A stretch of 64,000 nt of DNA. Origin: Fidelibacterota bacterium 408169. Its GTDB lineage: Bacteria > Fidelibacterota > Marinisomatia > Marinisomatales > TCS55. A program made the position numbers and the translations under genes. The notes under the pieces were generated by a model. It did no database searches. It was given only the letters and a program-made list of their open reading frames with translations, and was not told the origin of the DNA. Every line of letters starts with the position of its first letter. Positions within the stretch are counted from its first letter, which is position 1. The DNA is taken from assembly GCA_002256485.1 (NCBI GenBank), contig NNSG01000009.1, forward strand, positions 1-64,000. The letters are read 5' to 3'. Shown in pieces: positions 5,116 to 44,841 of the stretch.

Positions 5116-7578
5116 TTAATCTTCTAAATGGAGTAAATAGGATTCATCCACGAGTACTTCACGAGCTTTACTCCCGGTAAATGGCCCAACAACTGCAATC
5201 TGTTCCATTTGATCGATAAGGCGTGCTGCTCGTGAATAACCAACCTTTAAGCGGCGTTGAATAAGAGAAATTGATCCTTGTTGATGTGTGACGACTAGCC
5301 GAATAGCTTCATGCAATAATTCATCCTGATCCTCTTCCCCACCACCGTCTACAGCAACTCCATCAACTAATTGTCCTTCACGAATACTCGGCAAAATCAA
5401 TTCAGTTGCTTTAGGTTGTTCTTGAATATGTGTCATTAAAGATTCAATTTCTTCCAAAGATAAAAACGCATTGTGCAATCGGACAGGATCTGATGATCCT
5501 GAACCCAGATAAAGCATATCACCTCTGCCGATTAATTTTTCTGCACCGGGCATATCGATAATTGTGCGGGAGTCAATTTTGCTCGCTACTTGGAATGCGA
5601 TCCTAGATGGGAAATTGGCTTTAATCAAACCGGTGATTACATCTACTGATGGACGTTGAGTTGCAATCACTAAGTGGATTCCCACAGCTCGCGCCAATTG
5701 AGCCAAACGGGCGATTGGAGCTTCTACTTCACGAGCATTTAACATCATCAAATCAGCTAATTCATCCACCACAACTACGATATATGGCATGAAAGGTTCG
5801 CCGCTATCCTGCATCTTTTTATTGTATTCATCAATGTTTCGTACCACTTTATCAGCAAGGACATCATAACGACGGCCCATTTCTCTTTCCACAGACCTTA
5901 AAGCATATGCAGCATTTTCAACATTTGTAATAATGGGTTCATCTATGTCTTCCATGGATAATAAATGATAATCAGCTAATGAACGATATAGAGACATTTC
6001 TACTTTTTTGGGGTCAATAATAACGAATTTCAATTCGTCAGGAGTAGAACTGTATAACAAACTACAAATAATTGAATTCAGACAAACTGACTTACCTGAA
6101 CCTGTTGTACCTGCAATCAATAAATGGGGCATTTTCGCTAAATCAAGTGTAGCAATTTCTCCAGTTGTATTTTTACCGATTGCCAAAATCAATTTCGAAT
6201 CGGAAACAGCAAATTTTTCTGAATTGATTACCGATTTGAAATAAACTGTAGCCGGATTGCGGTTCGGTATTTCAATACCAACGGACGATTTTCCAGGGAT
6301 AGGTGCAATGACACGCACTCGGCTCGCCTCCATGACCCTTGCCAAGTCATCAGATAGAGCAACAAATTTATTGACGCGAACACCTTCTGCGGGCTCAACT
6401 TCAAATAATGTAATCACAGGACCGGGACTTACATTGACTACCTTTCCTTCTACACCAAATGTTAATAGTGATTGAGTGAGAAAATTTGCCCGATCAACAA
6501 GTTCATCGCGGCTCATACTGTCTGAAATATTTACAGGTGTTGCTAACAAATCAGATAAAGGAAGTTGATATTCACGTTTCGGCTGCTGTCTTTCAGATAC
6601 GTCATCCAGATTCACTTCATCTTCTTCAACCACTTCACCCACTTCAATATTTTCATCAACAGGCTCTAGAATATCTTCCGTTTGTTCATCAAGCTTTTCA
6701 GTATGGATATCATCATGTGACTTTGTTGCTTTTAATTCTTTTGTTTCTTTGTCTTCTATTTCATCTTGTGTTTGTTCTTCATATTCATCGGTTGGCACAT
6801 GTGTTGAAGGGACGGATTTTGCGATAGGAGTTGGTTTTTCATCTTCTTGAGCCACTAAACCTTCTTCCATTTCATTATTATCAATTTCAGCTAATACATC
6901 TTCTTCCTCTCTTTGAGCATCAATTTTATTCAGTAGATCCTGTGTATGCATTCGTTTGGCTTTTTCTGTAGCTTCAATTTCTTTTTTAAGTTTTTGTTCA
7001 TCCCGTTTTTTCTTAAATGTTATACCCAATTTTTCAAACGGTTCATACAAACTGAATTCAAAATATCCTCTGACCAACACCAACCATAAAGCAATTAACA
7101 AAATCGCAGTACCGAACATTCCCAAAAAGCTAAAGAGGAAATTAGCGAGATTCCCACCCACGAGTCCGCTTGCAGTAAAATCAAGACCGGAACGATCATG
7201 CATTCCTATTTCAATGAGACCGATTGTAACAGATAAAAGCACAATTACACCCACAACATAACCGGCAATACGGTTGAATGGTTTTAATTCTTTCTTACTA
7301 AAACAAAGCCAGCCCCAAATCAATCCCAAGATTGGAAATAAAAATGTGGAGTAACCAAACAGAAATTTGACAAAGAAATATGACAAGTATACACCCAGAA
7401 TCCCTAATGGATTTTCAACGTGAACATTTGGGGAAATACCCGGGTCTTCATTTGGACTGTATCCTATGAGACTGATTAATACCAATAACGAAATCGCCAG
7501 GGTAAGTATACCGAGTATTTCTAGGCGGCGATCTTTCAAAACAGTTGGGGATGTTCCGTTTTCACGGTTCTGAACCAA
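5116..7578 (-). CDS. ftsK: DNA translocase FtsK/SpoIIIE
   Basis: Septum-associated motor that pumps chromosome ends into daughter cells and activates dimer resolution at dif. About 820 residues: four or five membrane segments (about 20-170), a charged acidic linker (about 190-335), then the RecA-like motor. Walker A is GTTGSGKS at 490-497 and Walker B is VVVVDELADL. The C-terminal winged-helix gamma domain, which reads KOPS, includes SLIQRRLKVGYSRAARLID. The open frame begins at a TTG (7576-7578) that overlaps the epimerase by 43 bp and has no clear Shine-Dalgarno. Another TTG at 7537-7539 would remove 13 residues. The exact start is uncertain. Confidence 0.95.
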   Translation of the reverse strand: MVQNRENGTSPTVLKDRRLEILGILTLAISLLVLISLIGYSPNEDPGISPNVHVENPLGILGVYLSYFFVKFLFGYSTFLFPILGLIWGWLCFSKKELKPFNRIAGYVVGVIVLLSVTIGLIEIGMHDRSGLDFTASGLVGGNLANFLFSFLGMFGTAILLIALWLVLVRGYFEFSLYEPFEKLGITFKKKRDEQKLKKEIEATEKAKRMHTQDLLNKIDAQREEEDVLAEIDNNEMEEGLVAQEDEKPTPIAKSVPSTHVPTDEYEEQTQDEIEDKETKELKATKSHDDIHTEKLDEQTEDILEPVDENIEVGEVVEEDEVNLDDVSERQQPKREYQLPLSDLLATPVNISDSMSRDELVDRANFLTQSLLTFGVEGKVVNVSPGPVITLFEVEPAEGVRVNKFVALSDDLARVMEASRVRVIAPIPGKSSVGIEIPNRNPATVYFKSVINSEKFAVSDSKLILAIGKNTTGEIATLDLAKMPHLLIAGTTGSGKSVCLNSIICSLLYSSTPDELKFVIIDPKKVEMSLYRSLADYHLLSMEDIDEPIITNVENAAYALRSVEREMGRRYDVLADKVVRNIDEYNKKMQDSGEPFMPYIVVVVDELADLMMLNAREVEAPIARLAQLARAVGIHLVIATQRPSVDVITGLIKANFPSRIAFQVASKIDSRTIIDMPGAEKLIGRGDMLYLGSGSSDPVRLHNAFLSLEEIESLMTHIQEQPKATELILPSIREGQLVDGVAVDGGGEEDQDELLHEAIRLVVTHQQGSISLIQRRLKVGYSRAARLIDQMEQIAVVGPFTGSKAREVLVDESYLLHLED

Positions 7579-13963: not shown

Positions 13964-15663
13964 GCGCGGCTGTCCACTTTTTTAAGCAATATTCCCGCCG
14001 TTCCGGCCATATCTTGATTTGTCATTGTTCCGGGAGCATAACGTCCCGCATCGCAATCCTTTAAAAGTTGTATCAATTCCTCTAATTCTTCAGGTGGAAT
14101 AATTCCACTTAATTCCTGTTCAACATTTAAAGGATCCATCTTATCTGTCTGCAGCTGCCACCGTTCTTTTAAATATGAATAAATTGTGGATGCAACATTC
14201 TCTACATCAGATTGTATTTTAAGCGATTTTAATGCGCGTTTTAATGCCCGATGGGACATACGTTGTCCGGCGTTGGCGATGCGTTGTTGCTGATATCGCG
14301 TCAACGTTACAGGTGCCAAAAATAGCACGGCCGCTAAAACATAACCCGTCCATACCCAAATTGGCATTTCTCTTCTTCCCCGTTCAATCCATTTTGGAGA
14401 TGAAGAAATATTATAATGGATATCTTGACCCAACAGTGCAATTTCTTCTTTTGTAAATCCAGATGAACCGGATGTCAGTTGATCTTTAGCCGGTGAAATA
14501 TTTAATTCAACAGAACGGGAACTGATGGAATGAAATTGTTCGTCTTTGGGATTAAAATATGCCAATTCTATACGCGGTAAAAATACTCTTCCTGCTTGGC
14601 GAGGAATAAGAATGTATTCCCATTTCATATTACCGGTAAATTGATCCCAGAGTTGTTTCTGTTCAAATGATGCCGTGGGCGGAAATACTTCCATTGTCTC
14701 AGGGAAATTCAACTTTGGCAGGCTGAACATATTCAAATTTCCCGTTCCTTGTAATTCGACATAATACGTCACTGCTTCGTTAGCCTTCACTTTATCCGTA
14801 TCGACATAAGAACTAAGTTCAAACGCTCCTACAGCGCCGGTGAAATTTGCCGGTTGGCCAGCAGGATAAGGTTTAACACGAATTTTCCGTGCTTCAGTTC
14901 GGAGAATCTTTTGCACTGTTTCATTAAAAAAGCTATTAAAAAATGGATCGTCAAAAACACTACGCTGTTTTTTTCGCTTTTTCTTAATTTGAACATTGCA
15001 ATGCACTGTCATAGGCGATAATTCTAATTCACCTGTTTTTGTTGGAAAAAGAGCCACTTTATACAATGTTGCAACATTATACACAACACCACTGATTGTC
15101 GTTTGGTTAAACCGCGGAGGTCGCGGCACTGATAATTCTTCTGACCAAAAACCTACACTTTCGGGATATTTAATATCCTCCAAACTCATTTGTACTCGGG
15201 TATACAATTTGTATGTTACTGTGACTTGTTCGCCTACAAACACTTCATCCTGGTCAATTTCTGCCAGTAAAAATAATTCATCTTTTTTTGCGACTTGACC
15301 GCTACCTTTTATATTCATATGAATAGGTTTTGTTTTCAGTCGTTTTCCGTCCACAGTTACAGCTAAACTGGGAATAGTTAATTGTCCTTTTTTATTGGGC
15401 ACCAGTGTCCACGTAAGCGTTTTGCTTGAAGTGGCTTTTCCATTAATCCATTGGTAGCTGGTTTGCTGGGCAGGACCACTGACAATAGTGAAATTTTTCT
15501 CCAAAGGTGCCAGATTTATGCGGGGCATATTATCCGAACCTTTGGCTTCGATCTTGAATGTGAATGTTTCGTTCACCGCTAATTGGTTTACATCCACAGT
15601 TGCCGTTACAGACTGTCCGGTCACTATTTGGAATAATAAAATAATTGATACTAAAAGTCGCAT
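13960..15663 (-). CDS. batD: BatD, oxygen-tolerance (Bat operon) protein
   Basis: 567 residues. A signal peptide (MRLLVSIILLFQIVTGQS) leads into beta-rich domains typical of BatD (SVTATVDVNQLAVNETFTF, GEQVTVTYKLYTRVQ, TKTGELELSPMTVHCNVQI, GAVGAFELSSYVDTDKV). One membrane helix (WVWTGYVLAAVLFLAPVTLT) near 440-460 is followed by a cytosolic tail of about 105 residues. Most of the protein would be periplasmic. It abuts batC (TAATG-type junction) and overlaps batE. Confidence 0.88.
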   Translation of the reverse strand: MRLLVSIILLFQIVTGQSVTATVDVNQLAVNETFTFKIEAKGSDNMPRINLAPLEKNFTIVSGPAQQTSYQWINGKATSSKTLTWTLVPNKKGQLTIPSLAVTVDGKRLKTKPIHMNIKGSGQVAKKDELFLLAEIDQDEVFVGEQVTVTYKLYTRVQMSLEDIKYPESVGFWSEELSVPRPPRFNQTTISGVVYNVATLYKVALFPTKTGELELSPMTVHCNVQIKKKRKKQRSVFDDPFFNSFFNETVQKILRTEARKIRVKPYPAGQPANFTGAVGAFELSSYVDTDKVKANEAVTYYVELQGTGNLNMFSLPKLNFPETMEVFPPTASFEQKQLWDQFTGNMKWEYILIPRQAGRVFLPRIELAYFNPKDEQFHSISSRSVELNISPAKDQLTSGSSGFTKEEIALLGQDIHYNISSSPKWIERGRREMPIWVWTGYVLAAVLFLAPVTLTRYQQQRIANAGQRMSHRALKRALKSLKIQSDVENVASTIYSYLKERWQLQTDKMDPLNVEQELSGIIPPEELEELIQLLKDCDAGRYAPGTMTNQDMAGTAGILLKKVDSRA

Positions 15664-16406
15664 TACCAGTCTTTCTCAAGTTTTTTGGACCGAGCTTTGA
15701 CCATTTGACGCTTTTGATTCACTTTTTCATCCTTTTTCAAGGCATCTAAAATAGCTTGAGCATTTTGTAAATCCTGCTGTTTTTCCTGTTCTTCTTTAGC
15801 TTGTTGTTGCTGTTGTTCTTTTTCTTCCTGGGATTGTTCTTGTTGCTCTTGATTATTTTGTTGTTCTTGATCTTGCTGTTCAGGGTTATCTTGTTTTTCT
15901 TGTTCCTGATCATTCTTCTTTTCGCCATCTTGATCTTGTTGTTGCTGTTCTTGATCCTGCTGTTGTTGATCTTGGTTTTCGTCGTTTTCGCCCTGTTGTT
16001 CTTGTTGCTGCTCTTGCTGTTGCTGATAACGAATCATTTCATAATTGTGTTTTGCATCTTTATCCGTGGGATTCAACTCTAAAGATTTCCTATAAAATGC
16101 CAGTGCTTCTTCATTCTTTTTCTGGGATGCCATGAGATTGGCCATATTATAATATGCCTTGGACTGCAGTTCCTTATTGTCCGTTTCCAGTGATTTTTGA
16201 AACGCATCCAATGCACCCTGAATATCCTGTTGTTGAAAAGCTGTAGTTCCCAAACCAAATTGGGCAGCCGCATCTTCATCCTTTTCATTCAAAATGGATT
16301 CATAATACTTTCGTGCGTTTTCGAAGTCTCCACTCTGATAGGCCTTCAAGCCATCATCTTGGGCAATTAAAATTCCTGTCATAAAAATGAAAATGAGCTT
16401 AAACAA
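15663..16406 (-). CDS. batC: BatC: TPR protein with glutamine-rich tail
   Basis: 247 residues with a signal peptide (MFKLIFIFMTGILIAQ), then three TPR units (about residues 17-135), e.g. SKAYYNMANLMASQKKNEEALAFYRKSLELNPTD. After that comes a very low-complexity Gln/Glu/Asp/Asn tract (about 136-215) and a short basic C-terminus. TPR plus Q-rich tail is usual for BatC. The DNA under the tail is a run of degenerate CAA/CAG codons and could vary in length between strains. It overlaps batB by 8 bp. Confidence 0.85.
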   Translation of the reverse strand: MFKLIFIFMTGILIAQDDGLKAYQSGDFENARKYYESILNEKDEDAAAQFGLGTTAFQQQDIQGALDAFQKSLETDNKELQSKAYYNMANLMASQKKNEEALAFYRKSLELNPTDKDAKHNYEMIRYQQQQEQQQEQQGENDENQDQQQQDQEQQQQDQDGEKKNDQEQEKQDNPEQQDQEQQNNQEQQEQSQEEKEQQQQQAKEEQEKQQDLQNAQAILDALKKDEKVNQKRQMVKARSKKLEKDW

Positions 16407-35857: not shown

Positions 35858-37720
35858 TCAGAGTTCCGTCCCTTTCAAGCGCACATTTCCGTTCCGTTCA
35901 GTCCAACCCTGCTTATCGCAGTATTCCAGGACAGGAATGGCGAATTTCCGCGTTAAACCGCTCATGCGTTTGAAGTCTGCCACATTCATTTCACTTTGGG
36001 TGTTAAAATGATCTTTCATTGCTTGGCGGAGTTTAGTCAAGTTTTGGCTGTGCATCCAGACACCGTTTTCGATTTCCACCACTTTATTTTTACTCTTTAA
36101 AACGTGTAGTATTTCCAATATGTCCTTATGGCTTGTTTTCAGTTTTTTGGACAATTCGTCAGTCGTCATGGGAGTAAATCCATTGCCTATCAATCCACTT
36201 TCTATTTTTCCGGATAACTCTGCCGTTCCACCTGCTAATTCCACTCTATGACTCTCCAATGCTATGCCCGTTCCGGCGGAACGAATGGATGCATCTTTTT
36301 CCATAATGTCCAGCATTTCAGCTAACCATTTTTCACTCAATCCAGTCTCCTGCTGAAGGACATCCACGGACATGGATTTCCGCAGTGGATTATTCGCATG
36401 AAACTGTTTTAAACGTTTACCGATCAATTCGGAACAGTCTTTTATATTTCCGTCAGAATAAATAAAACTGCGTCTGGATGATTTCAATCCTGTTTTTTTC
36501 ACTAATTCCCGTACAGCTTTATCGGTCAATTGGAGAGATTTCCCCCACTCAAATACTGTTTTTGGTTCCAGTTTAAATGTATTAACCAATTGCTCAAATC
36601 GCTTCTCCAAATCTAAATCTAGTTCAGACACCCATTCTTTAATCTTTACTCCTTTGGGAATGAATGTAGCCAACACCGTCCCGCCGCCAATGGTGTGCAT
36701 AGGAGAATAGGAACGCATGACAAAACGGTCTTCCGTTGCGGCTACGGCCGGTTCTTCTAATTCAATAATTACATTTCCCGATCGTCCCGGATTCATTTTT
36801 TTGTTTGAAGGCAAATAGACTCGAGCCATTATCTCGTTCGTCCCTAAATGAACCCGCACTCGCTGGTGGTGTTTTAGACCTTTTTTCATGTCTTCGGTCA
36901 AATGAATTTGAGCCGTGAATTTCGATATGGACGTCAACATCCCCGGCATAGCCAGTTCTGATCCGCGAAATACTTTTTCCGCTTCCACTCCGGAAAGATT
37001 CACTGCTGCCCGATCTCCGCGCTGAACAAAATCCACTTCTGCACCATGGGACTGAATTCCACGAACTTTGGCAGAAATATCCCCCGGAAGTATATCTACG
37101 GAATCTCCTTTTTTCAATTTCCCGGAAACAACCGTTCCCGTTACCACCGTGCCAAAGCCTGTCATGGAAAAAACACGGTCTGCCTGAAGTCGAAAAAAGC
37201 TCTCATCTTGTGACATCTGAATAGCAGCTGCTTTTGCATCCAATAAATGCTTTAATTCTTCAATTCCCTCATTGGTTTGGACGGACGTTCTAACCACATC
37301 TACACTGACAAAAATGTCTTCTGATAATTCCCGAATCTCCAGTTCAATCAAGTCCAGCCATTCACCATCTTCTGCCAAGTCTGTTTTGGAGAGAGCTACC
37401 ACACATTGGGGAATATTCAGCAGTTTCAGGATGTGCAAATGTTCTCTCGTCTGGGGCATAATGCCGTCGTCCGCTGCTACAACCAAAAGAGCAATATTGA
37501 TGGTAGACACACCCGCCACCATATTACGAATGAATTTCTCGTGGCCGGGAACGTCAATGATTGTAACGGAATCATTTAAAAAAGCAAATCCCAGATCGAT
37601 GGTCATTCCCCGGGCTTTTTCCTCTGCCAAGCTGTCGGTGTCGGTCCCGGTGAGTGCTTTCACCAATGCGGTTTTTCCGTGGTCTATATGCCCGGCTGTA
37701 CCGATGACAACTTGGTTCAT
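35858..37720 (-). CDS. selB: Selenocysteine-specific elongation factor SelB
   Basis: 620 residues. An EF-Tu-like GTPase begins VIGTAGHIDHGKTALVKALT, with DVPGHEKFIRNMVAG and VALSKTDLAEDG. Domains II-III follow, then winged-helix domains (about 400-620) that bind the SECIS hairpin. It brings Sec-tRNA to recoded UGA codons. ATG and the selA stop share one base (TAATG), so the two are coupled. selC (tRNA-Sec), selD and a selenoprotein gene are not visible in the window. Confidence 0.95.
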   Translation of the reverse strand: MNQVVIGTAGHIDHGKTALVKALTGTDTDSLAEEKARGMTIDLGFAFLNDSVTIIDVPGHEKFIRNMVAGVSTINIALLVVAADDGIMPQTREHLHILKLLNIPQCVVALSKTDLAEDGEWLDLIELEIRELSEDIFVSVDVVRTSVQTNEGIEELKHLLDAKAAAIQMSQDESFFRLQADRVFSMTGFGTVVTGTVVSGKLKKGDSVDILPGDISAKVRGIQSHGAEVDFVQRGDRAAVNLSGVEAEKVFRGSELAMPGMLTSISKFTAQIHLTEDMKKGLKHHQRVRVHLGTNEIMARVYLPSNKKMNPGRSGNVIIELEEPAVAATEDRFVMRSYSPMHTIGGGTVLATFIPKGVKIKEWVSELDLDLEKRFEQLVNTFKLEPKTVFEWGKSLQLTDKAVRELVKKTGLKSSRRSFIYSDGNIKDCSELIGKRLKQFHANNPLRKSMSVDVLQQETGLSEKWLAEMLDIMEKDASIRSAGTGIALESHRVELAGGTAELSGKIESGLIGNGFTPMTTDELSKKLKTSHKDILEILHVLKSKNKVVEIENGVWMHSQNLTKLRQAMKDHFNTQSEMNVADFKRMSGLTRKFAIPVLEYCDKQGWTERNGNVRLKGTEL

Positions 37721-39090
37721 TAAACGTCCTGAATTGCTTGAATAAGTCTGGAAACCTGGTTAGACAGAACCGCTTTAAGATCAATAAAAAATGTATTTCC
37801 TTTGGTATATCCGACCACCGGTTGTGATCCGGTGCGAAATGTTTTTGCCAATGCTGAAACAGACATTTTTTTGGGCTTGAATTGCAGTGCAGCACTGGGG
37901 ATAGATTCCACGGGCAGTGAACCGCTCCCTGCTTCCACCTTGGATTCCACCAATGAAACACCCAAGTCTTTGATTTTCTTTTTAGGAATATCCGCTAAAA
38001 TTTTCTCTCCCCGCTTCAAAAGAGTATTTTGAGATGTGCTTAAGAGCTTCAGAGACAAATTATCTCCACTGACCTTTTGTTCTGAAAAATACGTACTCAA
38101 TGTTTCTTCCATGAGGGCGATGGTCCATTTGTCACAACGGTAGGTTCTGTAGAGTGGATTTTTATGGATGGCATTGACGAATTTTCTCTTTCCCACAATG
38201 AGCCCAGATTGAGGTCCGCCCAAGAGTTTATCGCCGGAGAATGTAATTATATCGGCGCCGGTCTTTACTACATCTGATACCAATTCTTCCGGAGGAATTT
38301 CCATTTTTTCCATATCCACCAAGGCGCCGGAACCGAGATCGGCCACCAATGGAATACGTTTCTTTTTGGCCAATACAGCCAATTCTGTCAGCGATACTTC
38401 CTTTGTGAATCCTTTTACGACATAATTACTGGTGTGAGCCCAGAGAATTGCGCCGGTGTTTTTGGTAATGGCTTTTTCGTAATCCTTCAGATGGGTACGA
38501 TTGGTGGTGCCCACTTCCACGAGATTACAGTGGCTTTTCCGCACAACGTCAGGGATTCGAAATGAACCGCCGATTTCCACTTCCTGTCCCCGGGAAACGA
38601 TGACGTCCTTCCCTTCTGCAAAAGTGTTCAGGGCAATAAGAACAGCTGCAGCATTATTGTTCACCATTAAACTGCTGTCTGAACCGCAGATGGCCGACAG
38701 TAAATGATTGACATGATTCTGACGCTCACCTCTTTTTCCGGAATTCAGGTCAAATTCCAGATTTACATACCCTTCCAAACGCTTTGCAGCATTGGCAATG
38801 ACTTTTTTTGAAAACGGCGCTCGGCCAAAACCTGTGTGTAAGACAACACCGGTGCCATTAACGATATTTTTCATGGATGGTTCACTCAATCGGTTGATTT
38901 CTGACAGCATTTCATGAACAATTGCGTTGCGATCAAGCTTTAATTTTCCTGCTCTAGCGTCTGCTCGATATCGACTTATTTCTGACTTAATAATTTTTGT
39001 TATATAATTAATATGGAGCTTTGTATCATTTCTTACTTCAAGTAATACTTCAGATACAGACGGTAGTTCTTTGAGTTGGTTTTTGCTCAT
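37720..39090 (-). CDS. selA: L-seryl-tRNA(Sec) selenium transferase SelA
   Basis: 456 residues of a PLP-dependent decamer. N-terminal LPSVSEVLLEV is the tRNA-Sec-binding part. The conserved core has NGTGVVLHTGFGRAPFS, VNNNAAAVLIALN, SRGQEVEIGGSFRIPDV and the PLP lysine in TFSGDKLLGGPQSG. It converts Ser-tRNA(Sec) to Sec-tRNA(Sec) with selenophosphate. It leads the selA-selB-mutS set. Confidence 0.95.
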   Translation of the reverse strand: MSKNQLKELPSVSEVLLEVRNDTKLHINYITKIIKSEISRYRADARAGKLKLDRNAIVHEMLSEINRLSEPSMKNIVNGTGVVLHTGFGRAPFSKKVIANAAKRLEGYVNLEFDLNSGKRGERQNHVNHLLSAICGSDSSLMVNNNAAAVLIALNTFAEGKDVIVSRGQEVEIGGSFRIPDVVRKSHCNLVEVGTTNRTHLKDYEKAITKNTGAILWAHTSNYVVKGFTKEVSLTELAVLAKKKRIPLVADLGSGALVDMEKMEIPPEELVSDVVKTGADIITFSGDKLLGGPQSGLIVGKRKFVNAIHKNPLYRTYRCDKWTIALMEETLSTYFSEQKVSGDNLSLKLLSTSQNTLLKRGEKILADIPKKKIKDLGVSLVESKVEAGSGSLPVESIPSAALQFKPKKMSVSALAKTFRTGSQPVVGYTKGNTFFIDLKAVLSNQVSRLIQAIQDV

Positions 39091-40341: not shown

Positions 40342-41442
40342 TCATATTGATATACGAATTTCTTCACAATTAGTATAAACATCATCAAAAATGAGTTCTG
40401 CTTTCTTTTTATCCAGACTGCACAATTTTGCCACTTCTAAAATTTCCTTTTTATTTGCATGTCCTTTATTCAAAATTGTTGTTGAATGATTTCCATCATA
40501 TCCACTGCTTGGAACTAAATCATAAGCTGGAGAGACAAACCACTGTTTTTTCTTCATAATAAATGAAATGTTTTTTGCATGGTCATCTTTATTTCCTGTT
40601 AGAATATTAAACACCATACGTCGAAATAATATATACGCTTCTTCGATATTTTTAGTTAGGACAAACGCTGTTTTAATTAAATCAACATAATCCAGCGACG
40701 GAAAACGATAGTCTGCATAAAGCAATCCTGATGCAGAGTGTATATGGATTCTTTTTCCATTAGTCCTGTCAAAACGTTTAGCACCAAAATATTTTCCTTC
40801 AAATAATTTAGTTTCCGGCATTTCAATTCCGCAATTTTTTGCAATAAGTGAATATTGATATTCAATTTCACCCATATTTTCAGGATCATGAGCAGATCTG
40901 AATTTGACAATCCAGGGATCGCCTTTAATGTTAATTAGTACTTTTGGTCTTGCGCCGCCGGATGAACCGCCCATCTTAATCAACTCGTCTAACATCCCAC
41001 TTTTATATTTGTTTTCGATCAATATTTTATGAACTTCCAATGCAAGAAGATTAAGATCGTCAATCTGATCTTTTGACTTAAAAGCATAATCAGGTTCATA
41101 CGATAAAATTCCCATACCAGACTTGCCTACTAAACTCAATCTATCCAGCAAAGACAAGGAACCAGATTGTATATTATTGCTCAATAAATATCTATCTATA
41201 AGCAAATTACCCCAACCATCGGGCAGGCTATCGTTAAATAAACCGAATAATCCATTAAATGGTTCACGATGTGCCGTAAATGCACCAGCTTGCAATGGTA
41301 AATAAAACGGAGAAAGAGAAACGCCATTGATTAAATAATCATGATTATATTCAAAGACACATAATCTTTCCGGTGAAATCACCATTCGACCCATGAATTT
41401 ATCATTGGCGAATATATTTAACAGATTGACTGGTTCAAACAT
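40342..41442 (-). CDS. hipA: HipA-family kinase toxin
   Basis: 366 residues. An N-terminal HipA domain (ANDKFMGRMVI through LPDGWGNLLIDRYL) precedes the kinase part. This has the GGSSGGARPKVLI loop, which in E. coli holds the autophosphorylated serine. The catalytic segment is NILTGNKDDHAKNISF and the metal-binding one is AYDLVPSSGYDG. E. coli HipA phosphorylates glutamyl-tRNA synthetase and causes dormancy; the target here is not known. It overlaps hipB by 8 bp. All key motifs look intact, so the toxin should be active. Confidence 0.92.
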   Translation of the reverse strand: MFEPVNLLNIFANDKFMGRMVISPERLCVFEYNHDYLINGVSLSPFYLPLQAGAFTAHREPFNGLFGLFNDSLPDGWGNLLIDRYLLSNNIQSGSLSLLDRLSLVGKSGMGILSYEPDYAFKSKDQIDDLNLLALEVHKILIENKYKSGMLDELIKMGGSSGGARPKVLINIKGDPWIVKFRSAHDPENMGEIEYQYSLIAKNCGIEMPETKLFEGKYFGAKRFDRTNGKRIHIHSASGLLYADYRFPSLDYVDLIKTAFVLTKNIEEAYILFRRMVFNILTGNKDDHAKNISFIMKKKQWFVSPAYDLVPSSGYDGNHSTTILNKGHANKKEILEVAKLCSLDKKKAELIFDDVYTNCEEIRISI

Positions 41443-41755
41443 TTCTGCCGCGCTGCCTTTCCTTTACCTTACTATTTTGAATAATGTCATCAACACTTTG
41501 ATATTGGTTTTCGGGAAACAAAAGGCGAAACTCATCTAGACTGCCTAAAACCAACGCAATTTGTAAAAGATGTTTTAATGAAATTTCATGTTTGTGCTCA
41601 AATCGCTTTATGGATCCTAAACTAACACCGGATTTTTCCGATAACGATTGCTGGGCCATGTTTAGCGAAAGTCGCTTTTTCCTCATTCTTTTTGATACAT
41701 TTTCAGCAATTACATGTGGGTTTAAATCATCAATTTTGAAATTTACTACAGACAT
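41435..41755 (-). CDS. hipB: HipB-like antitoxin, XRE-family regulator
   Basis: 106 residues with a Cro/CI-type helix-turn-helix at about residues 27-82 (MRKKRLSLNMAQQSLSEKSGVSLGSIKRFE). The C-terminal tail is charged. As in hipBA of E. coli the antitoxin comes first, and an AAGGATAAT ribosome-binding site precedes its ATG. Palindromic DNA just upstream is a likely binding site for autorepression. Confidence 0.9.
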   Translation of the reverse strand: MSVVNFKIDDLNPHVIAENVSKRMRKKRLSLNMAQQSLSEKSGVSLGSIKRFEHKHEISLKHLLQIALVLGSLDEFRLLFPENQYQSVDDIIQNSKVKERQRGRNV

Positions 41756-43497: not shown

Positions 43498-43731
43498 TCA
43501 GTCGATCACATCCAAACGTGCACGTTTACCGCCTTCTTTGGCATTAACAGCAAACACAAGTGTGCGAATAGCAGAAATATTGCGACCACGCTTGCCGATA
43601 ACTTTTCCGTAATCACCCTCTCCTACAGTTAATTCAAAAATAATTCGCTGTTCTGTTTCCACTGGTGTCACTTGTACTTCTTCTGGTTTATCCACTAACT
43701 TTTTAACTATCAATTCGATCATTTCCTGCAT
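43498..43731 (-). CDS. khpA: KH-domain RNA-binding protein KhpA
   Basis: 77 residues consisting of one KH domain. The nucleic-acid loop is VGEGDYGKVIGKRGRNISAI, and the ending RTLVFAVNAKEGGKRARLDV is typical. It is found between rpsP and rimM in many bacteria and may act as a global RNA chaperone with KhpB. Confidence 0.93.
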   Translation of the reverse strand: MQEMIELIVKKLVDKPEEVQVTPVETEQRIIFELTVGEGDYGKVIGKRGRNISAIRTLVFAVNAKEGGKRARLDVID

Positions 43732-43749: not shown

Positions 43750-44829
43750 TTATTCGTTGCTTTTATTTTCCTTTTCTTCTTTCAAAGATTCTTCATTTCC
43801 TTCGTCCGGTTCGGCTTCTTCTTCTGAGGATTCTTCTGTTACTTCATCTACTTTTGTATCAGCTGATTCTTTTTCATCCGCAGCCTTTTCTTCCTCGGAT
43901 GTTTCTTCTTCTACGTCCGGTTTAGCTTCAGGTTCATCTTTTTCGTCTTCCTTTGCTTCCTCTTCAACACCATCGCTAATTAGAGATTCTATTTCGTTTG
44001 AATCTTCAACTTTGGTGTCATCAGTTTCTTCAGTCTTTTCTTCTTGATTAGCCTCTTCAGCTTGGTTTTCATCTACTTTATCTTCTGTTGATTCTTCTTC
44101 TGGAGCGTCGTCGGCGTTTTCTTCTTTTGGTTCTTCAGTTTCGTCTTCTACTTCAGATTCATCAACAGACGCTTCTGACGCAGCTTCTTCAACTTCTTTT
44201 TCACCTGCAGTTGATTTTTCATCCGCAGTATTATCTTCTTCAGGTGTTTCAACTTCTACGTTCGGTTTAGCTTCAGGTTCATCTTTTTCTCCATCCTTAT
44301 CATCTACACTGCCAGCTTTTTCTTCTCTTGCAGATTCATCAACAGATGCTTCTGCTTCTACTGGAGCCTCTTCGGCTTTTTCTTCAACTACAGGAGAATC
44401 TTCTTTCGTTTCTGTCGCTGCTTCTTCTGCTTCTTTCTCATCTTCTTTTTGTTTTTCTTCAGCTTTTTTCACTGCTTTATCACTTCTGCTCTTATCAACT
44501 TCTGTTCTTTCAAGAGCCCATTTTTTCATCTCTTTTTCCACAGCCGCTTCATCCAGTCCCTGACGAACCAAATGCCAGCGATAGGCCAGTCCAGTTCTTT
44601 TTAATAGATTGTGAGCTGTTTCTGTAGTTTGCGCTCCTTCCTGAAGCCAATGCATAATTCGCTCATCATTAAGGGCATAATTCTTTTCATCATCAAGTTC
44701 GAGTGGATTAAACCAACCTAATTGTTCGATGGCAGCGCCATCCCGGCGAGCACGTTCATCCATCACCACCAAGCGGTAAAAAGGTCTGTTTCTTCGTCCG
44801 ATTCGTTTCAGTCTTATTTTAGTAGCCAA
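43750..44829 (-). CDS. rpsP: Ribosomal protein S16 with very long acidic C-terminal tail
   Basis: 359 residues, whereas S16 is usually 80-120. Residues 1-85 are a normal S16 (KIRLKRIGRRNRPFYRLVV, AIEQLGWFNPLE). Residues 86-125 are mixed and partly basic. Residues 126-359 are almost all Glu, Asp, Ala, Lys, Ser and Thr, with net strong negative charge. The tail has internal copies: EKDEPEAKPNVEVETPEE (181-198) and EKDEPEAKPDVEEETSEE (296-313), and EASVDESA/EASVDESE (160, 219). There is no stop or frame shift between the parts, and the gene sits in its normal place after ffh. The role of the tail is unknown. Confidence 0.95.
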   Translation of the reverse strand: MATKIRLKRIGRRNRPFYRLVVMDERARRDGAAIEQLGWFNPLELDDEKNYALNDERIMHWLQEGAQTTETAHNLLKRTGLAYRWHLVRQGLDEAAVEKEMKKWALERTEVDKSRSDKAVKKAEEKQKEDEKEAEEAATETKEDSPVVEEKAEEAPVEAEASVDESAREEKAGSVDDKDGEKDEPEAKPNVEVETPEEDNTADEKSTAGEKEVEEAASEASVDESEVEDETEEPKEENADDAPEEESTEDKVDENQAEEANQEEKTEETDDTKVEDSNEIESLISDGVEEEAKEDEKDEPEAKPDVEEETSEEEKAADEKESADTKVDEVTEESSEEEAEPDEGNEESLKEEKENKSNE

Positions 44830-44841
44830 TTCATTCTCCTT

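Follow-up and report, generated by a model that had tools for sequence, protein, structure and literature searches.

A long, usually acidic C-terminal extension of ribosomal protein bS16 across the Candidatus Neomarinimicrobiota

Few proteins are known to be under constraints as tight as those on ribosomal proteins. The window analysed here, a stretch of 64,000 nucleotides (64 kb) from a genome of Candidatus Neomarinimicrobiota (Marinimicrobia, SAR406), a phylum whose members are uncultured and for the most part marine, carries an rpsP gene whose product is a bS16 of 359 residues with a long C-terminal extension, raising the question of how this extension is built, how it arose and what it might do on the ribosome. 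The open frame has 359 codons and a stop codon and occupies positions 43750–44829 on the minus strand. Its product matches PF00886 at residues 9–69 with 83.8 bits against a curated cut-off of 27, no other Pfam domain was matched in it, and the gene is single-copy, with one PF00886 match across the genome. The original prediction, whose interval (43750–44487) corresponds to residues 115–359 only, had proposed a normal S16 core running without a stop into a longer tail, and the domain match and the open frame bear this out. The check set beforehand concerned residues 85 to 130: neither a frameshift nor a stop codon interrupts this stretch. The extended frame is open in relatives also, and the bS16 of the nearest named relative (Candidatus Neomarinimicrobiota) is 94% identical across the first 117 residues.

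The gene lies in the order ffh-rpsP-khpA-rimM-trmD-rplS (46170–41941), which preserves rpsP-rimM-trmD-rplS and is supported by matches to PF00886, PF13083 and PF01245, with ffh, rimM and trmD named from translations of their open reading frames. The KH-domain RNA-binding protein gene khpA (43498–43731, minus strand; PF13083, 75.4 bits) begins 18 nt beyond the stop codon of rpsP and has its own Shine-Dalgarno sequence; it is a neighbouring gene, separate from the bS16 tail. Further along the minus strand we recognised by eye a HipA-like kinase frame and a small HTH frame beside rplS (40342–41755), which look like a HipBA-type toxin-antitoxin pair, and adjacent SelB-like and SelA-like frames (35858–39090), which suggest a selenocysteine system.

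Translation of rpsP starts at a TTG (44827–44829) with an AAGGAGA Shine-Dalgarno sequence upstream. Among 86 distinct Neomarinimicrobiota sequences (loci L002–L096), the start is TTG in 57, ATG in 18, GTG in 10 and unclear in one, usually with AAGGAGA upstream; in the out-group it is ATG in 53/53. The weak start codon seen across the phylum may have a regulatory role. An out-of-frame ATG (ATGAATTGG...) at 44827–44833 overlaps the TTG and starts a frame of six codons. Most relatives compared lack this ATG, and its position over the start is probably a matter of chance.

AlphaFold2 (AF2) prediction with 50 phylum sequences divides the protein into three parts. The core (residues 1–80; 44590–44829, minus strand), which holds the PF00886 match, adopts the S16 fold with pLDDT mostly above 90, and its dN/dS within the genus is 0.06–0.14. 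It is followed by a helical arm (residues 81–139; 44413–44589, minus strand), comprising a helix at 81–89 and a long helix at 94–139, with a block pLDDT of at least 91 up to about residue 130. A second run on residues 1–140 gave identical helices, the AF2 runs having used alignments of 25 and 50 sequences. H86, L87 and W104 are nearly invariant across the bS16 proteins of the phylum. In residues 84–125, E–K exchanges number 0.013 per site, against 0.133 for synonymous Glu changes, a roughly ten-fold depletion measured over non-independent pairs, and this alignable stretch of the arm is, judged by its substitutions, under strong purifying selection. Our profile A2 aligns through about residue 137 with the bS16 proteins of Porphyromonas gingivalis and Flavobacterium johnsoniae, giving, next to the core, a helical segment that can be aligned and that holds a conserved W near position 104; this W is found in the P. 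gingivalis alignment too. The arm is thus apparently homologous to the bS16 extensions of these two species, and, because of this alignment, is probably an FCB feature.

Beyond the arm, residues 140–359 (43753–44412, minus strand) have no structure in AF2, with block pLDDT of about 41–52, which we take as a proxy for disorder. The original prediction had described an acidic unstructured chain; its call of disorder agrees with the AF2 result beyond residue 140, but the ~55 residues with which the extension opens are predicted as a conserved helix and not as acidic disorder. Residues 126–359 consist of 45% D/E and 11% K/R, a net charge per residue (NCPR) of −0.35, and, with the window as background, the bS16 tail contains the most acidic 100-residue stretch, with an FtsK-like linker ranking behind it. 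A TPR-like protein elsewhere in the window (15663–16406, minus strand; recognised by eye) has a long, Gln/Glu-rich, low-complexity C-terminal half.

The tail contains a repeat, as had been predicted together with partial growth by duplication. Copy A (about residues 178–214; 44187–44298, minus strand) and copy B (about residues 293–329; 43842–43953, minus strand) form a 112-nt pair at 80% identity, within which residues 181–205 match 296–320 in frame at an offset of exactly 345 nt. The tail self-match score is 48, compared with a maximum of 27 in 500 codon shuffles. In three relatives of the same genus, L071, L072 and L073, the aligned counterpart is the distal copy B, so the proximal copy A is probably the derived duplicate. 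One of them, L073, has a bS16 of 461 residues that includes an exact 53-residue unit in three tandem in-frame copies. Every self-match scored among five members of the genus keeps the reading frame, and these alignments indicate that tail length changes partly by in-frame duplication.

How widely such extensions occur was followed across the phylum, for which we found no literature on this tail. We obtained bS16 from 132 of 150 phylum genomes, and in all 132 the open frame spans at least 111 residues, some being cut by contig ends. Every complete sequence sampled is extended, with total lengths of 145–461 residues; this sample comprises 66 distinct sequences and a further 20 picked chiefly to include long frames and to cover the families. 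In the 66, the part beyond residue 83 has 80–378 residues (median 150), and the second sample of 20 lowers the minimum to 62. Totals of at least 300 residues occur in families f1, f7, f8, f9, f16, f19 and f23, and long acidic tails in f1, f7, f8, f16 and f19, more weakly in f23. Control bS16 proteins outside the phylum, drawn from one common search, mostly have 80–92 residues. The original prediction knew of no S16 tail as long as this one, a point overtaken by the phylum-wide extension and the 461-residue protein of a species in the same genus. Its proposal to align bS16 from relatives and compare tail length and composition yielded, besides the range of 62–378 residues, tail NCPR values between −0.44 and +0.03 across the 66 sequences. 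Twelve of the 66 lie above about −0.20 and two of these are slightly positive. Acidity, which had been described for the tail in the window, is on these compositions usual across the phylum but not obligatory, with a minority of tails neutral.

Contig ends bear on whether the extension could be an artefact of sequencing or assembly. A contig end lies within 900 nt on the downstream side of residue 83 in 8 of the 27 named Neomarinimicrobiota loci, and within 900 nt upstream in none (Fisher p = 0.004); in the genome set, at 600 nt, the counts are 8/70 downstream and 1/62 upstream (p = 0.036), a difference that lost significance when several other thresholds were applied, and the two sets overlap. 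The rpsP loci whose contigs end inside the tail are L078, L081, L082, L087, L090, L091, L092 and L094. These frequent contig ends, together with a run of N in one relative's tail (L070/L063), are what an artefact would lead one to expect, but homologous open tails recur across dozens of independent assemblies, one of them a genome in a single 3.4-Mb contig (G121) whose bS16 has 320 residues with a long tail, and the frame and regional composition are conserved. An artefact is thereby excluded in substance, and we give it practically no credence. The position of the contig ends suggests repeats, or length variation at the population or strain level, as their cause; in practice, assembly of metagenomes may break off at rpsP because of the bS16 tail. 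Taken together, we regard the anatomy of the extension, its presence throughout the phylum and its growth by repeats as very nearly certain.

The tail evolves differently from the arm. Within the genus, dN/dS in the alignable distal part is 0.27–0.62, values that depend on the alignment, and in the alignable distal blocks E–K exchange (0.068 per site) is no rarer than synonymous Glu change (0.059), from few sites and non-independent pairs, so that this comparison detects no site-level constraint on charge in the distal tail. Because E–K exchange is depleted in residues 84–125 and equal distally, individual residues are under constraint in the alignable arm but not in the tail. Likewise, 32 non-overlapping phylum-wide pairs gave no sign of strong charge selection beyond residue 115, a region that mixes the end of the arm with the tail; pooled, they contain 25 E–K exchanges over 633 sites, per site only slightly below the 17 A–T exchanges over 340 sites. 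Distal tails share 4 common 6-mers, no excess over shuffled sequences (mean 1.9, maximum 9). In family f1 tails, however, Glu codons are 849 GAA to 144 GAG, yet GAR outnumbers AAR by 993 to 182, which means that Glu is retained in preference to Lys despite an A-rich codon bias. The simplest reading of these patterns would be that bulk composition is under weak selection, or else that the tail has recently grown from repeats rich in Glu. Since tail length and sequence differ from species to species, this is a part of the ribosome surface that evolves unusually fast.

We favour, at a probability of roughly 0.45, a mechanism in which a docked helical arm bears a polyanionic brush selected for its composition. 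By analogy with the bS16 extensions of mycobacteria and Cutibacterium, the arm would dock on the 30S body towards uS4, and the tail would project from the 30S surface as the brush. Such a brush could repel RNA and other acidic surfaces, or separate neighbouring ribosomes and assembly intermediates, through an effect that would depend on bulk charge and length and not on sequence. Rapid sequence turnover with usual acidity fits this mechanism, because a brush needs charge and length only. Also in its favour are the extension carried by every complete sequence sampled, the long acidic tails in several families, the predicted helical arm and disordered tail, the arm's apparent homology to the extensions of P. 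gingivalis and F. johnsoniae, the unmodelled distal extensions in solved structures, the preference for Glu against codon bias in f1 and the lack of shared distal motifs; the missing site-level charge constraint distally and the 12 tails above about −0.20 NCPR count against it. The wider proposal, that a phylum-wide, repeat-grown and usually polyanionic brush is selected for charge and length and tunes ribosome–ribosome or ribosome–RNA interactions in the crowded cell, we hold only tentatively.

The main rival to this selected brush is a near-neutral tail, in which an exposed low-complexity end grew by in-frame duplication and drifted, its acidity stemming from Glu/Ala-rich founder repeats and from removal only of basic or sticky RNA-binding variants. 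The faster, alignment-dependent dN/dS of the tail relative to the core, the undepleted distal E–K exchange, the spread of extension lengths, the exact triplicate in L073 and the existence of neutral tails would all follow from drift. Drift sits less well with an extension kept in every complete sequence sampled and with an acid composition that recurs across families against codon bias, and a long tail that is costly and useless would be expected to be trimmed from a protein as abundant as this; we consider this account, as to both growth and acidity, possible but doubtful. An extension of 62–378 residues that is always present and turns over between close species offers a natural experiment bearing on disordered charge in ribosome assembly and on ribosome crowding.

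Two further proposals give the tail a specific task. As an assembly chaperone in cis, the acidic tail would shield the basic bS16 core before it contacts 16S rRNA, in the way dedicated acidic chaperones serve eukaryotic ribosomal proteins; this would make sense of a strongly acidic tail and an rRNA-binding core in one chain and has a precedent in the escortin Tsr2 and its client eS26 (PMC6131548). Several lineages have neutral tails, however, tail length goes far beyond what charge balance needs, and the other ribosomal proteins of the S10/spc/alpha operon, most of them net basic, carry no long acidic tail; such a chaperone seems unlikely. Alternatively, the tail could be a platform recruiting a basic partner, whether an assembly factor, KhpA, or uS3, uS4 or uS5 near the mRNA entry. 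The original prediction had raised partner binding as well, along with a possible cation reservoir. khpA does adjoin rpsP, but that adjacency is a common gene order; length variation is large, and sequence-specific partner binding is weakened because the distal tail has no conserved motif beyond composition. In favour of such a platform, the extension of C. acnes is directed to uS4 and to the side where mRNA enters (PMC10085706), but we judge recruitment quite improbable.

A comparable acidic tail was absent from the proteins of the S10/spc/alpha operon, S2, L21 and L19. A general habit of acidic tails on ribosomal proteins was rejected, as among those compared only S2 and L5 are extended, neither comparably. 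As separate observations, uS2 (L151, complement strand, 308-residue frame) has an extra low-complexity C-terminal tail of ~80 residues and mixed charge, and uL5 (L153, about 5664–6428) has an apparent Lys-rich N-terminal extension in a 254-residue frame beginning MAKKETSEKPDKKKPVAKKSAAKKT.

The interval of 16S rRNA from 341 to 515, which contains h17, is 175 nt long in the host genome and 169–176 nt in relatives, and 174 nt in E. coli by standard numbering. For C. acnes, the authors link the bS16 extension to a shorter h17 (PMC10085706), and the same replacement could be proposed here, where the same protein is extended at the same end by a predicted helix; with the interval at E. coli length, compensation for a short h17 is disfavoured and very improbable. 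On a contig of another genome of the genus (L160, G003), the 16S rRNA differs strongly from relatives in the 341–515 region, for which reason that contig may be contamination.

The closest known counterparts are other extended bS16 proteins. In mycobacteria and C. acnes the extensions have about 60–75 residues, forming a helix that reaches uS4 with the remainder unresolved (PMC5876184, PMC6133939, PMC10085706); in M. smegmatis the contact with uS4 is described in PMC5876184 and PMC6133939. They resemble the present case in the protein, the end, the helical first part and the flexible distal part, but are far shorter. Moderate S16 tails in FCB relatives, as originally predicted, are indeed found in P. 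gingivalis (192 residues, PDB 9i5v) and F. johnsoniae (188 residues, PDB 7jil), lengths that are those of the PDB chains, 192 being the longest among the bS16 chains listed. A search for literature on the P. gingivalis ribosome returned no paper. Distal extensions are unmodelled in the solved structures, which include 118 of 192 residues in P. gingivalis, 85 of 188 in F. johnsoniae and 128 of 147 in C. acnes. The Bacteroidota proteins share the core and an extension alignable to about residue 137, but their tail has at most about 105 residues, with mixed Ala/Lys/Glu in the P. gingivalis alignment, whereas in Neomarinimicrobiota the extension reaches 378 residues and is usually strongly acidic. 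Acidic chaperones or escortins of eukaryotic ribosomal proteins, such as Tsr2, which acts on eS26 (PMC6131548), are alike in that an acidic segment handles a ribosomal protein; Tsr2 is a separate factor, whereas here the acidic segment is fused to bS16 and any chaperone role is only putative. The tail described here is an extreme variant of a known theme, shorter bS16 extensions being already known in Bacteroidota and Actinobacteria.
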